Shown here piece by piece: positions 4,567 through 8,040 of a stretch of 64,000 nt of DNA. Made by a program: the position numbers and the translations under genes. Under the pieces are notes generated by a model. It saw only the letters and a list, made by a program, of their open reading frames with translations. It was not told where the DNA came from and searched no databases. This DNA comes from Bacteroidia bacterium (GTDB lineage Bacteria > Bacteroidota > Bacteroidia > Flavobacteriales > Flavobacteriaceae). Each line of letters begins with the position of its first letter. The stretch's first letter is position 1. Location: positions 1 through 64,000 of the forward strand of contig JAUIGO010000001.1 in the NCBI GenBank assembly GCA_030429955.1. The letters run 5' to 3'.

Positions 4567-6915
4567 TTATTCCGAAATCTCAATATTACGTTTGGCTTCA
4601 TTGCCAAACTCATCAACCACAGTAATGACATGTTTTCCAACTTTGGGCAAAATGGCTAGTTCATGAATGGTTTTAGTGCTTCCAATAAAGGTGTCATCCA
4701 AATACCAAAAAACGGTTGTTTCTGGTTTTGAGTGTGCTATTTTTAAAATAAGTTCATTCGTGTTTCCATCAAAATCTTTAGGTAAAAAGAATTTTCCTGA
4801 TTCTTTAGGATAGATAAATTGCATGGTTATTGTTCCTTTAGCAACACAATCACTTCGGTAAGGCGGTAAGGGTTTGTAAAATGGGTTTTTATATTTGTAA
4901 TAATATTCCATTAAAGGAGGCAACACAAACCAAGAGATGTTTTTAATATTTGCCAACGGTTCACAAGATGAATTCACCTGATATTGCCCTGAGGCATCCA
5001 AATGCACCAACACATGATAAGGGCAAGGTTTTGTTGTTAAGCCACTCAATTGAATGAATTTCTGTTCAGTATCACTGCAATTAGGTGATACTCTATAGCC
5101 ACTTTTGGAGCAAATGGCTACTTCTTGCATTTCATCAAAAGGTTTACTGAACCAGTCGCTATGTGGCAATATATCAAACACATCAAACAAAATAGGTGCT
5201 GCAGTTTGCACACCAACCAATCCTGGACGACCTTCACCATCGGCATTTCCAACCCAAACACCAACCACATAATCTTTAGTGACACCAATTGCCCAAGCAT
5301 CTCTAAATCCAAAACTTGTTCCTGTTTTCCAAGCAATTTGTTTTGACGAATCAAAGAATTGCCAATTTTCATCACCTTCAGGTCTGTTCACCTCTTTCAT
5401 ACTTTCAAACGTGAGGTAAATAGAAGCTGCATCAAAAATGGTTTTTTCATCATTGAGGTTACCAAAATCTATTTCTGTATCTGCATAAAAGGTTGGCTCT
5501 AAAAACTCGTTGGTATAATACTGACTTGAGTTTGCATTGAAATGATTAACGGTTCCAGCCATTGCAGCATAACTTTTGCACAAATCCCAAAGATTACTTT
5601 CGGCACCACCAAGAATTAAGGATAAACCATAATGATTGGCACTCTTTTTTATGTCTTTTAATTCTAATTGCTTGAGATAATGGTAGAATCTGTCCAAACC
5701 AAACTGCTGAAGCAATCTCACAGAAGGTACATTGAGCGAACGAGCCAAAGCACGTTTAGCAGTAACTGCACCATCAAATTCCTTACTGTAGTTTTGCGGA
5801 TTGTAACTTCCAAATTGTGTTGGTACGTCTGGCACTAAAGTGTTTGGCAACAAATCGCCAACATCTAACATAGCAGCATATAAAAAGGGTTTTAAAATGC
5901 TTCCTGTACTTCGTGGTTTGGTTATGACATCTACTGCATTTTGATGTGTTTTATCGGTTGGTGAATTACCAACATACGATACCACTTTTCGTGTGTTGAC
6001 ATCTAAAATCAAAACAGCAATGTTATGAATTTCGTTTTGGTGTAATTGATTATAATGATTTTTTACAATAGCATTGGTTTGCTCTTGCACGTGTTTTTTG
6101 ATGGTTGTTTGTATGCGTTTACCATAATTACTTTTGGCAACATTTTGCAATAAATGAGGTGCAATTTGCGGTAAAGGATAGGGTTTTTGAGGTAATTCTT
6201 CAAGAATGGATAATTCATAAGTAAGCGAATCGATAATTTCGTTTTCTAATAATTTTTCAAGAAGTGTATTACGTTTTTTGAGTAAATGGTCTTGGTTTTT
6301 TCCAGGGTAAATTAAACTTGGTGCATTAGGCAATACAGCAAGTGTAGCACTTTCTGCCCAAGACAAATTGTTAGCATTCCTGTTAAAATAACGCCATGAA
6401 GCTGCATCAAGTCCAACGACGTTACCACCAAAAGGTGCATTACTTGAATAGTAAGCTAATATCTCGTCTTTTGAATATCTTAATTCTAAACGAGTAGCAA
6501 GTATAATTTCTTTAAGCTTTTCAGTATAAGTCCTAGATGTTCCTTTTCGGGATAGACGAATGGTTTGTTGTGTAAGCGTGCTTCCACCTCGCCTCACGTC
6601 GCCAGAACTTATATTATCTCTAAGGGCTTTATAAATTGAGACAGGATTAAATCCAGGATGTGTATAGAAATATTCGTCTTCAAAGAGGATTAAACATTTC
6701 TTGAATTTTTCAGGAATACTGTCGTTATGTGGAAAACGCCACTGACCATCTTTTGCAATAATGGCACCAAGTAATTCACCATCACGACTTTCAATAACGG
6801 TTGCTGTAGGATCTGTAAAAAGTTGTTTTGGCAAACAGAAATAATAAGCAATCAGCAGTATTGTTACTACTGCTGATTTTATTTTGTTACGTTTTATGTA
6901 GCTTATTATTTTCAT
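4567..6915 (-). CDS. pbpC: Penicillin-binding protein 1C (bifunctional glycosyltransferase/transpeptidase)
   Basis: An in-frame upstream extension exists, but the ATG at 6915 gives a proper cytoplasmic tail and membrane anchor (about 13-27) and avoids translating the repeat DNA above it; the product is 782 residues. The GT51 domain has the catalytic motif EDEYFYTHPGF (E79) and RRGGSTLTQQ. The transpeptidase domain has STGSILKPF (nucleophile S339, K342), SLN at 393-395 and KTGTS at 530. The C-terminal 170 residues fit the BiPBP_C domain. PBP1C proteins polymerise glycan strands at the inner membrane and are typically encoded beside an alpha-2-macroglobulin. Here that partner lies upstream on the same strand, separated by about 2 kb of added genes and repeats. 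Confidence 0.93.
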   Translation of the reverse strand: MKIISYIKRNKIKSAVVTILLIAYYFCLPKQLFTDPTATVIESRDGELLGAIIAKDGQWRFPHNDSIPEKFKKCLILFEDEYFYTHPGFNPVSIYKALRDNISSGDVRRGGSTLTQQTIRLSRKGTSRTYTEKLKEIILATRLELRYSKDEILAYYSSNAPFGGNVVGLDAASWRYFNRNANNLSWAESATLAVLPNAPSLIYPGKNQDHLLKKRNTLLEKLLENEIIDSLTYELSILEELPQKPYPLPQIAPHLLQNVAKSNYGKRIQTTIKKHVQEQTNAIVKNHYNQLHQNEIHNIAVLILDVNTRKVVSYVGNSPTDKTHQNAVDVITKPRSTGSILKPFLYAAMLDVGDLLPNTLVPDVPTQFGSYNPQNYSKEFDGAVTAKRALARSLNVPSVRLLQQFGLDRFYHYLKQLELKDIKKSANHYGLSLILGGAESNLWDLCKSYAAMAGTVNHFNANSSQYYTNEFLEPTFYADTEIDFGNLNDEKTIFDAASIYLTFESMKEVNRPEGDENWQFFDSSKQIAWKTGTSFGFRDAWAIGVTKDYVVGVWVGNADGEGRPGLVGVQTAAPILFDVFDILPHSDWFSKPFDEMQEVAICSKSGYRVSPNCSDTEQKFIQLSGLTTKPCPYHVLVHLDASGQYQVNSSCEPLANIKNISWFVLPPLMEYYYKYKNPFYKPLPPYRSDCVAKGTITMQFIYPKESGKFFLPKDFDGNTNELILKIAHSKPETTVFWYLDDTFIGSTKTIHELAILPKVGKHVITVVDEFGNEAKRNIEISE

Positions 6916-6951
6916 GTTTACTTCCCACGAAAGGGGGAATCTATTAAATTT

Positions 6952-7105
6952 AACCCTTCCGTCTTTGATTTCTTTAGTGAAATCAAATCCACCTTCCCTT
7001 ATCAAGGGAAGGAATTTCCTCCCATTAAAATTTATTCACACAACTCTCATCCTTTTTAAGGAGGAGTGGCTTCTGAATTTTTATTCATAAGACGAGGTGG
7101 TTTTA
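6952..7105. repeat. Composite hairpin repeat, copy A (blocks I and II)
   Basis: Block I begins ACCCTTCCG. It holds a variable stem (TTTGATTTC 6964-6972 with GAAATCAAA 6979-6987, loop TTTAGT) and then CCTTCCCTT/AAGGGAAGG around ATC. Block II holds CTCATCCTT/AAGGAGGAG, then GTGG, a second variable stem (CTT-TGAAT with ATTCA-AAG) and GAGGTGG. The right end of block II encodes the last codons and the stop of the DUF559 gene (stop at 7081-7083). It aligns end to end with copy B on the other side of that gene, in the same orientation. Confidence 0.85.
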
Positions 7106-7455
7106 AAATGATTGATGATTTCTTCTAATACCTCAGGTAACTTCTCAAATATCATTTTATTCTCAAATCGAATTACTTTGAGTCCAAGATTTTCAAGAAT
7201 TTCAGTTCTTTCCAAATCATAATTTTGTTGCGCAAAATCTAAATGAACAGCACCATCGAGTTCTACTATTAATCTTTCAGAAGCGCAATAAAAATCAACT
7301 ATAAAATTTTGAATACTGTGTTGTCTTCTAAATTTTCTTCCTTTTAGTTGTTTTCTTTGTAATGATTTCCATAAGGTTGCTTCGGCAGGAGTTAGATTCT
7401 TTCTAAGTTCTTTCCTGCGCTCTTCAAGATGTTTTTGATTATGGATTTTGCTCAT
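7081..7455 (-). CDS. DUF559 endonuclease-like protein
   Basis: The 124-residue protein has the DUF559 layout: an N-terminal basic segment with LRKNLTPAEATLWKSL (17-32), KFRRQHSIQNFIVDFYC (D54), LIVELDG (E65, D67), then LGLKVIRFENK. DUF559 is related to Vsr and PD-(D/E)xK-type nucleases, and the D/E pair plus the following strand are where catalytic residues lie in that fold. Its biochemical role is not established. The gene is bracketed by two same-orientation copies of a composite hairpin repeat, and its last residues (about TTSSYE) are encoded inside copy A. This suggests that gene and repeats move or evolve as a unit, with the protein possibly acting on the hairpins; that is inference. Confidence 0.82.
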   Translation of the reverse strand: MSKIHNQKHLEERRKELRKNLTPAEATLWKSLQRKQLKGRKFRRQHSIQNFIVDFYCASERLIVELDGAVHLDFAQQNYDLERTEILENLGLKVIRFENKMIFEKLPEVLEEIINHFKTTSSYE

Positions 7456-7469
7456 TTTTTTTATGATTT

Positions 7470-7626
7470 TACCCTTCCGAATTTAATTCTTTTAGTAGAA
7501 TTAAATCCACCTTCCCTAAAATAGGGAAGGAATTCCTAAAATTAAACTTTACTCGTACAACTCTCCTCCTTTTGAAGGAGGAGTGGCTTTGGTTTTGTTG
7601 AAAGAAACCAAAGGCGAGGTGGTTTA
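7470..7626. repeat. Composite hairpin repeat, copy B (blocks I and II)
   Basis: It has the same architecture as copy A, with different stem sequences that remain perfectly complementary. Variable stem I is ATTTAATTCT (7481-7490) with AGAATTAAAT (7497-7506), loop TTTAGT. The next stem is CCTTCCCTA/TAGGGAAGG around AAA. Block II has CTCCTCCTT/AAGGAGGAG around TTG and variable stem II CTTTGGTTT (7587-7595) with AAACCAAAG (7605-7613), then GCGAGGTGG. It lies immediately upstream of the DUF559 start codon. Confidence 0.87.
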
Positions 7627-7645
7627 TATTCTATTTTCTAATTCT

Positions 7646-7709
7646 AACCCTTCCGCCTTTAAACGCTTTTGGTGCGTTTAAAGCCACCTCCCTTATTTAA
7701 GGGAAGGAA
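7646..7709. repeat. Composite hairpin repeat, copy C (block I only)
   Basis: This is a block I unit alone: ACCCTTCCG, variable stem CTTTAAACGC (7657-7666) with GCGTTTAAAG (7674-7683) around TTTTGGT, then CCACC and a CCCTTA/TAAGGG stem. It overlaps the 3' end of the monooxygenase-fold gene and supplies its stop codon (7693-7695) and last few residues. Confidence 0.82.
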
Positions 7710-8040
7710 CTGCTTTCCATTCATATTCACGCTCCACTTTACAAATTCTAGTGTTGTACCAACTATACCATTGGTTACGACCTTTTTGTTGTGCAATCAA
7801 ATGCTCAGCGTTTTGTTTCCAATTTTTTATGGCTTCTAAACTTTCCCAATAACTCACAGTAATACCTACAGCTCCACTGAGCGCAGTCGAAGTGTCTTCT
7901 CGTGCACTATCAATGCCCAAAAATCCAAATTGGGCTTTGGCCAACTCTTCCATTTTTTGTGCCATCTCACTGTAGCCTTCATTGTTTTGAGTTAAAGTGG
8001 ATGTAAATATGACTGCGTAGTATGGTTTAAAGTTTTGCAT
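7693..8040 (-). CDS. Antibiotic-biosynthesis-monooxygenase (ABM) fold protein with in-frame palindrome insertion
   Basis: The 115-residue product has a dimeric ferredoxin-like ABM core: YYAVIFTSTLT at the start, MAQKMEELAKAQFGFLGIDSARE, then GITVSYWESLEAIKNWK and HLIAQQKGRNQWY. Homologues I remember have a short turn between ARE and GITVSYW. Here about eight extra residues (DTSTALSGA, near 49-57) are encoded by a 20-bp palindrome at 7875-7894. The stop and final residues lie in hairpin repeat copy C, so two repeat types have intruded on the gene. ABM-fold proteins include heme-degrading enzymes and small oxygenases; the function here is unknown. The start overlaps the end of the SH3 gene by 14 nt. 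Confidence 0.8.
   Translation of the reverse strand: MQNFKPYYAVIFTSTLTQNNEGYSEMAQKMEELAKAQFGFLGIDSAREDTSTALSGAVGITVSYWESLEAIKNWKQNAEHLIAQQKGRNQWYSWYNTRICKVEREYEWKAVPSLK
7875..7894. repeat. 20-bp palindromic repeat inserted in a coding sequence
   Basis: The sequence CACTGAGCGCAGTCGAAGTG has outer arms CACT/AGTG and an inner ACTG-AGCG-CAGT palindrome. Sequences of this kind are scattered between genes in many Flavobacteriaceae (recalled, not checked). Here it sits inside the ABM-fold gene without breaking the frame. Confidence 0.65.

Follow-up and report, generated by a model that had tools for sequence, protein, structure and literature searches.

Our analysis of the window, a 64,000-nucleotide (nt) stretch of Bacteroidia DNA, revealed a DUF559 endonuclease-like gene bracketed by triplex-type hairpin repeats. 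We think it likely that this arrangement represents a widespread class of mobile elements, in which the autonomous form is a DUF559 gene bracketed by triplex-type hairpins, the solo and paired repeats are non-autonomous relatives, and movement is started by the nuclease. Gene and repeats are co-located in several phyla, with the repeats bracketing the gene; orthologous sites occur with and without the bracketed cassette; insertion has occurred in frame within host genes; and the active-site residues are intact. Because DUF559 sits inside the repeats and apparently travels with them, it is a good candidate for their spreader, and we infer that the nuclease is what moves them.

Five half-units surround a DUF559 gene

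The half-units lie around the DUF559 gene at 6952-7709, in the order H1-H2, gene, H1-H2, H1 (Y/R, pyrimidine/purine; z, folding relative to shuffles):

6946..7715, no strand assigned: whole block H1-H2-DUF559-H1-H2-H1, edges approximate
6952..7017, plus strand: half-unit H1-A; box ACCCTTCCG at 6953-6961, variable hairpin at 6964-6987, Y/R hairpin at 6992-7012; z -5.5; mirror 8/8
7042..7105, plus strand: half-unit H2-A; Y/R hairpin at 7046-7066 (one mismatch), variable hairpin, box CGAGGTGG at 7093-7100; z -4.4
7081..7455, minus strand: DUF559 (PF04480) endonuclease-like gene; 124 aa; E = 1.3e-34
7470..7535, plus strand: half-unit H1-B; box at 7471-7479, variable hairpin at 7481-7506, Y/R hairpin at 7510-7530; z -5.1; mirror 8/8
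7559..7626, plus strand: half-unit H2-B; Y/R hairpin at 7563-7583, variable hairpin, box CGAGGTGG at 7615-7622; z -6.3; mirror 8/8
7646..7709, plus strand: half-unit H1-C; box at 7647-7655, variable hairpin at 7657-7683, imperfect Y/R hairpin at ~7687-7707; z -3.7

In each half-unit, a second hairpin, whose sequence is free but whose pairing is preserved, lies between a purine/pyrimidine hairpin and a fixed box. In H1, the order is box ACCCTTCCG, variable hairpin, CACCT(T)CCC, loop, and purine arm (e.g., AAGGGAAGG); since the reverse complement of H1 shows the H2 layout, H1 and H2 constitute an inverted pair. Box ACCCTTCCG occurs three times in the 64-kb window, against an expectation of 0.07.

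The initial annotation had placed three repeat copies here (A, 6952-7105; B, 7470-7626; C, 7646-7709), and we recovered all three positions, as well as the complementarity of the variable stems quoted for them. Copies A and B indeed flank the DUF559 gene in the same orientation (H1-H2 on either side, plus strand), and the coding end of the gene falls in H2-A, such that copy A, as proposed, supplies the last DUF559 codons and the stop. The fixed blocks described as common to all three copies are shared by A and B, which contain two half-units each; copy C is H1 only and is devoid of the GGAGGAGTGG/GAGGTGG half. H1-C provides the final codons and stop of a neighboring 115-aa ORF (7693-8040), and the neighbor across the other side of the block is a penicillin-binding-protein-like gene (4567-6914), which we take to be pbpC. 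An Rfam scan returned weak matches only, the best of which (a Moco riboswitch model, E = 0.024) was under the gathering score and is read as chance; PADLOC likewise gave weak hits only (E = 7e-5 and 0.0017).

The position of the window repeats at gene ends is compatible with an account that involves no gene-driven mobility, in which the repeats are RNA hairpins (terminators or mRNA stabilizers) that accommodate small genes, and vertically inherited domain fusions account for the in-frame copies of DUF559. In light of the results below, we regard this account as very improbable.

Folding of the repeats and a mirror-related third strand

When the five window half-units were folded as single-stranded DNA, their z scores relative to shuffles ranged from -3.7 to -6.3. 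To these we added 74 distinct inter-box sequences from the window and other loci, in three sets (28, 14, and 32 sequences), for which the mean numbers of paired bases were 6.8, 9.0, and 4.8, respectively, versus 2.6, 2.8, and 2.2 upon shuffling; some short inter-box sequences and several of the third set paired no better than shuffles. The selection for folding postulated in the initial annotation is supported by these data, with inter-box pairing exceeding that of shuffles on average. Its description of the stems as covarying applies insofar as pairing is mostly kept while sequence is free; the stems differ by wholesale replacement rather than by stepwise, single compensatory changes.

We corrected the view of the fixed blocks as mere hairpin parts, as they are also mirror-related, in an intrastrand-triplex geometry. 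More specifically, the sequence of the purine arm recurs as a mirror image in the fixed box (e.g., box GGAAGGGTT for arm AAGGGAAGG, T being permitted opposite A), and a mirror box together with a purine arm is, as judged from sequence, the layout of a predicted intrastrand purine-motif triplex. Among purine-arm hairpins with a stem of at least 8 within 400 bp of DUF559, 213 of 221 had a mirror box (a match of 7/8 or better), compared to a shuffled expectation of 56.5; 129 of the 221 satisfied the same rule in parallel orientation as well, presumably owing to partial symmetry of the arms. The window hairpins of H1-A, H1-B, and H2-B scored 8/8, and those of H2-A and H1-C fell outside the stem rule of the mirror script and so carry no mirror score. 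Within 300 bp of DUF559 (best 80 of 576 loci), the 5' arm was pyrimidine in 149 of 173 stems, mixed in 24, and purine in none.

Relation to BoxC/PIT/TM repeats and the ycjD locus of E. coli

Since the fixed blocks are mirror-related, we grouped the window repeats, on the basis of their architecture, with the previously described BoxC/PIT/TM repeats, which have been known since the 1990s. The available text of one report describes these as intrastrand-triplex repeats, with 23 in E. coli K-12 and occurrence in >260 genomes, and states that no mobility function was found near the E. coli sites (Holder 2015, PMC4666352). As far as that text goes, both kinds of repeat combine a Y arm and an R arm with a mirror third strand, and are dispersed, sometimes as inverted pairs. 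They differ in that BoxC/PIT/TM loops are short (1-6 nt), whereas the second loop of the window repeats is a 20- to 30-nt variable hairpin, and in that here a nuclease gene lies between such motifs, in contrast to the E. coli motifs, for which no mobility function nearby is reported (PMC4666352).

The E. coli DUF559 gene, ycjD, sits between sapF and fabI and is present in the laboratory strain C600. In strain H240, the repeat between ycjD and fabI is identical, letter for letter, to K-12 TMECO no. 9 (and also nos. 16 and 19) as given in the accessible part of the published list. Of 5426 genomes, 3359 covered the 1300-bp ycjD region over 80% or more of its length, and a 78-bp query holding the TMECO no. 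9 repeat reached that coverage in a near-equal number (3377). In an evenly spaced sample of 60 ranked rows (one plasmid row dropped), repeat places averaged 22.0 in the 37 chromosomes with the 78-bp place and 8.7 in the 22 without it, a comparison confounded by strain ancestry. We rejected ycjD as a clean empty site, because the two ycjD-lacking strains viewed carry efflux genes there, which counts against the mobile-element reading. Upon comparing loci L330 and L331 with L332 and L333, we observed MFS and outer-membrane efflux genes beside sapF in these two strains; their occurrence instead of ycjD/fabI looks like replacement or deletion.

The repeats accompany DUF559 genes in several phyla

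Our main sample consisted of the DUF559 loci nearest to the window protein, from several phyla. Among the best 80 of 576 loci, which were confirmed, hairpin density fell from 5.86/kb within 150 bp of the gene to 0.05-0.34/kb at distances of 450 bp or more, and outside ORFs of at least 100 aa it was 5.89/kb near versus 1.11/kb far from the gene. A strong hairpin was located within 300 bp of DUF559 in 72 of these 80 loci, and on both sides in 45; the 8 loci without one count against the mobile-element reading. Likewise, a hairpin within 300 bp was present at 21 of 24 Bacteroidota DUF559 loci (from the 29 loci L185-L213, excluding L195, L212, and three with cut flanks) and at 11 of 14 plasmid loci (picked from 42 matching plasmid-collection records and representing cyanobacteria, alpha-/gammaproteobacteria, and Deinococcus). 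By comparison, only 1 of 30 Vsr genes had a strong hairpin at that distance. For Y1 transposase genes (25 of 30 loci used, five with cut flanks having been dropped), a hairpin of different sequence was found within 300 bp in 10 of 25, and on both sides in 1 of 25.

Y/R hairpins within 400 bp were detected at 104 of 141 DUF559 loci (19 of which had been fetched for their long frames; L049, identical to L110, was omitted) and at 9 of 14 plasmid loci, versus 0 of 30 for Vsr and 0 of 25 for Y1. Thus, the clustering beside DUF559 genes envisaged by the initial annotation extends beyond Flavobacteriaceae; the remaining 37 of 141 loci count against the mobile-element reading. Moreover, the same repeat occurred on both flanks of one DUF559 gene at 64 of 131 loci, versus 47 of 5240 mismatched pairs. 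In a check for terminal inverted repeats, the shared flank repeat was inverted at 34 of the 131 loci and direct at 46, with some loci showing both, and long inverted ones were visible by eye in L291 and L292. As the loci are mutually related, none of these locus counts represent independent events. Both the bracketing of DUF559 genes by the same repeat and the absence of Y/R hairpins from the Vsr genes of the same phylum sample argue against the repeats being RNA hairpins that simply tolerate small genes.

Individual loci illustrate the settings in which such cassettes occur. On a Sphingomonas parapaucimobilis plasmid (L293, 2462-2872), the suf operon contains DUF559 with hairpins, placed between sufB and sufC, and a Deinococcus psychrotolerans locus (L292, 2462-2815) has DUF559 with long inverted repeats between paaD and paaZ. 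At G016:C8:488312-489455, the same CCTTCCCTT hairpin occurs four times in 1.2 kb, suggestive of the local amplification of a unit.

Repeat content of genomes and the Y1 transposase

We searched 197 Bacteroidota genomes, excluding the window genome (G000), using a degenerate hairpin pattern. At least four hairpins were present in 38 of 83 genomes with DUF559 versus 7 of 114 without it (Fisher p = 4e-11), with reversed-pattern control means of 0.73 and 0.61, respectively; the association was weaker upon within-family permutation (71/5000). Among 59 relatives, the mean number of hairpins was 4.4 in the 17 genomes with DUF559 versus 0.64 in the 42 without (p = 0.001). The initial annotation had considered its proposal endangered by a lack of association or by repeats being equally common without DUF559; we found instead that the association exists and that genomes without DUF559 are poorer in repeats.

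Two observations count against the mobile-element reading, namely, that seven genomes without DUF559 have at least four hairpins (two reaching 21 and 18) and that most repeat places in the window genome are not beside DUF559. Repeat-rich genomes without DUF559, and an excess of repeat places over DUF559 genes in the window genome, are also what the main rival explanation would predict, according to which the repeats are moved or multiplied by a RAYT-type transposase, replication slippage, or recombination, with DUF559 being a passenger between copies. The Y1 transposase (PF01797) is indeed present in 132 of 198 Bacteroidota genomes, and among genomes with DUF559 those with Y1 are richer in hairpins (means of 13.7 versus 4.4), so a helper role for Y1 is possible. 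However, Y1 makes almost no difference in the absence of DUF559 (1.19 with Y1 versus 0.98 without), no Y1 match at E ≤ 1e-6 was found in the window genome (93% complete), the hairpins at Y1 loci are of other sequence and in none of the 25 loci of the Y/R type, and in several phyla it is again a DUF559 gene that is found between such repeats. Accordingly, we hold the passenger explanation to be unlikely. As a sole mover, RAYT is disfavored for the window genome, given the lack of a Y1 match and the low counts without DUF559 whatever the Y1 status; the RAYT analogy drawn in the initial annotation fits with respect to layout and falls short in that this genome has no Y1 transposase match.

REP/REPIN sequences with RAYT, and GTAG-REPs, are likewise short, dispersed palindromes in inverted pairs that sometimes flank a single gene, but the window gene encodes a DUF559 nuclease rather than a Y1 HUH transposase, the stems are Y/R, and the hairpin foot has no GTAG (plus strand, by eye), the sole GTAG being at the loop/stem border of H1-B. 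CGTC-REPs have been reported in Bacteroidetes, without a dedicated transposase (Di Nocera 2013, PMC3733652). They possess a CGTC tag, an 8- to 9-bp stem beginning with AT, and a CCA tail; the variable hairpin of H1-A is preceded by CCGTC and followed by TCCA, whereas H1-B and H1-C have no CGTC and differ in the form of their stems (by eye), and the window repeats have a third strand. A literature search covering titles and the starts of abstracts, with few subscription papers included, retrieved nothing among the matches listed that visibly ties DUF559 to repeats.

Presence and absence at orthologous sites

The block is missing from the orthologous junction in same-genus genome G003 (locus L134), in which the flanking ORFs are conserved on both sides and ~55 nt with a different, ATTCCTGCGAAAGCAGGAAT-like palindrome (L134 ~1405-1480) are found instead. 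It is also missing at the same junction in G009 and G008, but it is present there in a Winogradskyella metagenome-assembled genome (MAG) of another genus (L054), and nearby in L056 and L057; the tree sister of the window DUF559 gene (L055) is at another locus. Given that the block is in L054 yet absent from same-genus G003, an old insertion with losses and a re-invasion are both possible. At G001 loci L215 and L224, a ATTCCTGCGAAAGCAGGAAT-like palindrome occurs where G000 carries H1/H2 repeats; this palindrome resembles a CGTC-REP, and such places may be shared insertion hot spots. As L056 and L057 show relative to the window locus, the gene order around this DUF559 gene varies from genus to genus, some genes beside the repeats being absent or relocated.

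Clean empty sites were identified within recG, as G002, G004, G013, and G026 do not have query residues 416-560 and their flanks are contiguous in DNA; two junction codons also differ at these sites. Likewise, a LeuRS insert in G003 is absent from same-genus G000, G001, and G002, which have 15-60 nt between the matched parts. Comparing recG of G000 and G003, third positions differed at 8 of 145 sites in the insert versus 153 of 700 in the host (p = 7e-7), with the change occurring at the insert borders, and synonymous divergence was 0.11 versus ~0.5. Among 435-nt windows of the gene, the insert had the fewest differences (14), with a drop to 23 at the gene start; relative to G009, insert and host were both near saturation. 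An insert less diverged than its host does not accord with a vertical domain fusion, but this is a single gene pair and ordinary recombination could be the cause.

No target-site duplication was recognized at the RecG site or at solo repeat sites, the relatives being too diverged, and same-genus alignments yielded no clean nucleotide-level empty site for a solo repeat, which counts against the mobile-element reading. When solo repeat sites were compared with a relative, L005, L009, and L017 appeared absent, L004 and L013 were shared, and L008 was unalignable. A separate dispersed repeat, ATTCCGCAT...ATGCGGAAT, lies in the flank of L016 (G000:C56; query 1149-1211) and has four matching places in G003.

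In-frame copies inside host genes

Strong DUF559 matches (E ≤ 3.6e-22) numbered 32 in 60 genomes (the window genome included), and 10 of them were in frames of at least 400 aa. Pfam confirmed as hosts RecG, LeuRS (two sites), HsdR, HsdM, MetH, and N6_N4 and Eco57I methylases, together with coproporphyrinogen oxidase, to which DUF559 is fused N-terminally, and a further class I tRNA synthetase, presumably IleRS from its motifs. Many inserts are adjoined by repeat-encoded peptides; in metH of G042 (L047), near-identical ones (PTPAL..EGDE..VPPP.GEVRRGS) occur on either side of DUF559 in the same orientation. Using laxer stems, a triplex-type hairpin was found beside 30 of 37 in-frame DUF559 domains and 76 of 104 others, versus 0 of 30 Vsr and 0 of 25 Y1 genes. 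Residues E25, D54, E65, D67, H71, and D80 were all kept in 35 of 35 in-frame domains examined, i.e., those of at least 90 aa (L030 is too short, and L040 is outside that set). The in-frame LeuRS insert of G005 (L040) looks decayed, with no histidine after an IEVDG-like stretch, and is possibly a fossil. By inspection, the RecG insert starts with G, ends with S, and leaves the frame continuous, i.e., the residues required for intein splicing are not found in this insert.

We constructed a DUF559 tree (138 rows, 120 columns) in which many forks are unresolved. The RecG inserts constitute one clade (100/93), which suggests that vertical inheritance may account for some of the pattern, as the RNA-hairpin account would have it; four of five LeuRS site-1 inserts also form one clade (98/92; L040 left out), LeuRS site 2 has two lineages in the best tree with a single origin being possible, and the presumed IleRS insert of G003 is sister to the RecG inserts (97/90). 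In contrast to what that account predicts, the MetH inserts fall into two DUF559 lineages on supported branches, and so do the HsdR inserts. In HsdR, the sister domains of L191 and L193 (100/100) are apparently at different places, and L193 and the unrelated L244/L248 at an apparently similar one (both by eye).

The DUF559 nuclease

The same six residues are invariant in 17 DUF559 sequences, and we assume that the EDxHD catalytic motif applies to them. A DUF559 profile matched two PDB entries, namely, 3hrl at E = 7.6e-31, an endonuclease-like protein, and 3r3p at E = 2.3e-6, titled "Mobile intron protein", the latter of which we take to be the EDxHD homing endonuclease I-Bth0305I; with the window sequence alone as query, 3hrl was found and 3r3p was not at E ≤ 1. 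The EDxHD homing endonuclease family, including I-Bth0305I, is described in the available text of PMC3943268. DUF559 probably resembles these enzymes, given the profile match to 3r3p, invariant E, D, H, and D, and in-frame inserts at recurrent sites; it differs in that neither intron nor intein is seen, with frames running straight through, and in its flanking triplex-type hairpins. Caulobacter VsrA (PMC12907096) and E. coli YcjD are of the same domain family, and a word search of the available VsrA text retrieved no mention of palindromes.

The Caulobacter Vsr-like DUF559 protein is reported to cause the SOS induction that some methyltransferase-lacking cells undergo (PMC12907096), which, along with the conserved active site and the instability of TM sites in E. 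coli reported in PMC4666352, would suit a housekeeping or policing role. Under such a scenario, DUF559 cuts triplex or hairpin DNA extruded at replication, and gene and repeats stay together since each is harmful or useless alone. We consider this improbable, as it leaves unexplained both the in-frame LeuRS, RecG, and MetH copies and the presence or absence of a bracketed cassette at orthologous sites.

Discussion

How might a DUF559 cassette move? In the mobile-element reading that we favor, the EDxHD/Vsr-like DUF559 protein would introduce a nick or a break into the folded ends, an unoccupied target, or both of these, and host repair would then copy the bracketed cassette into the cut site, with the triplex or hairpin ends marking the cassette. 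Such a process would be homing-like, involving no transposase and neither intron nor intein, and solo repeats could arise when an end alone is copied or the gene is lost.

A broader proposition, to which we assign an even chance, is that BoxC/PIT/TM-type repeats of many phyla are the non-autonomous members of an unrecognized class, whose autonomous copies of ~0.4-0.8 kb carry DUF559 alone and move by break and repair at triplex-forming ends, including splicing-free, in-frame homing into essential genes, where they would remain as a permanent extra domain. BoxC/PIT/TM repeats have long been without a known mover, and the recurrence of DUF559 between triplex-type repeats provides a concrete suspect. 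If this proves true, the in-frame copies in LeuRS, IleRS, RecG, MetH, and restriction-modification proteins would represent a selfish gene having become a protein domain without an intein.
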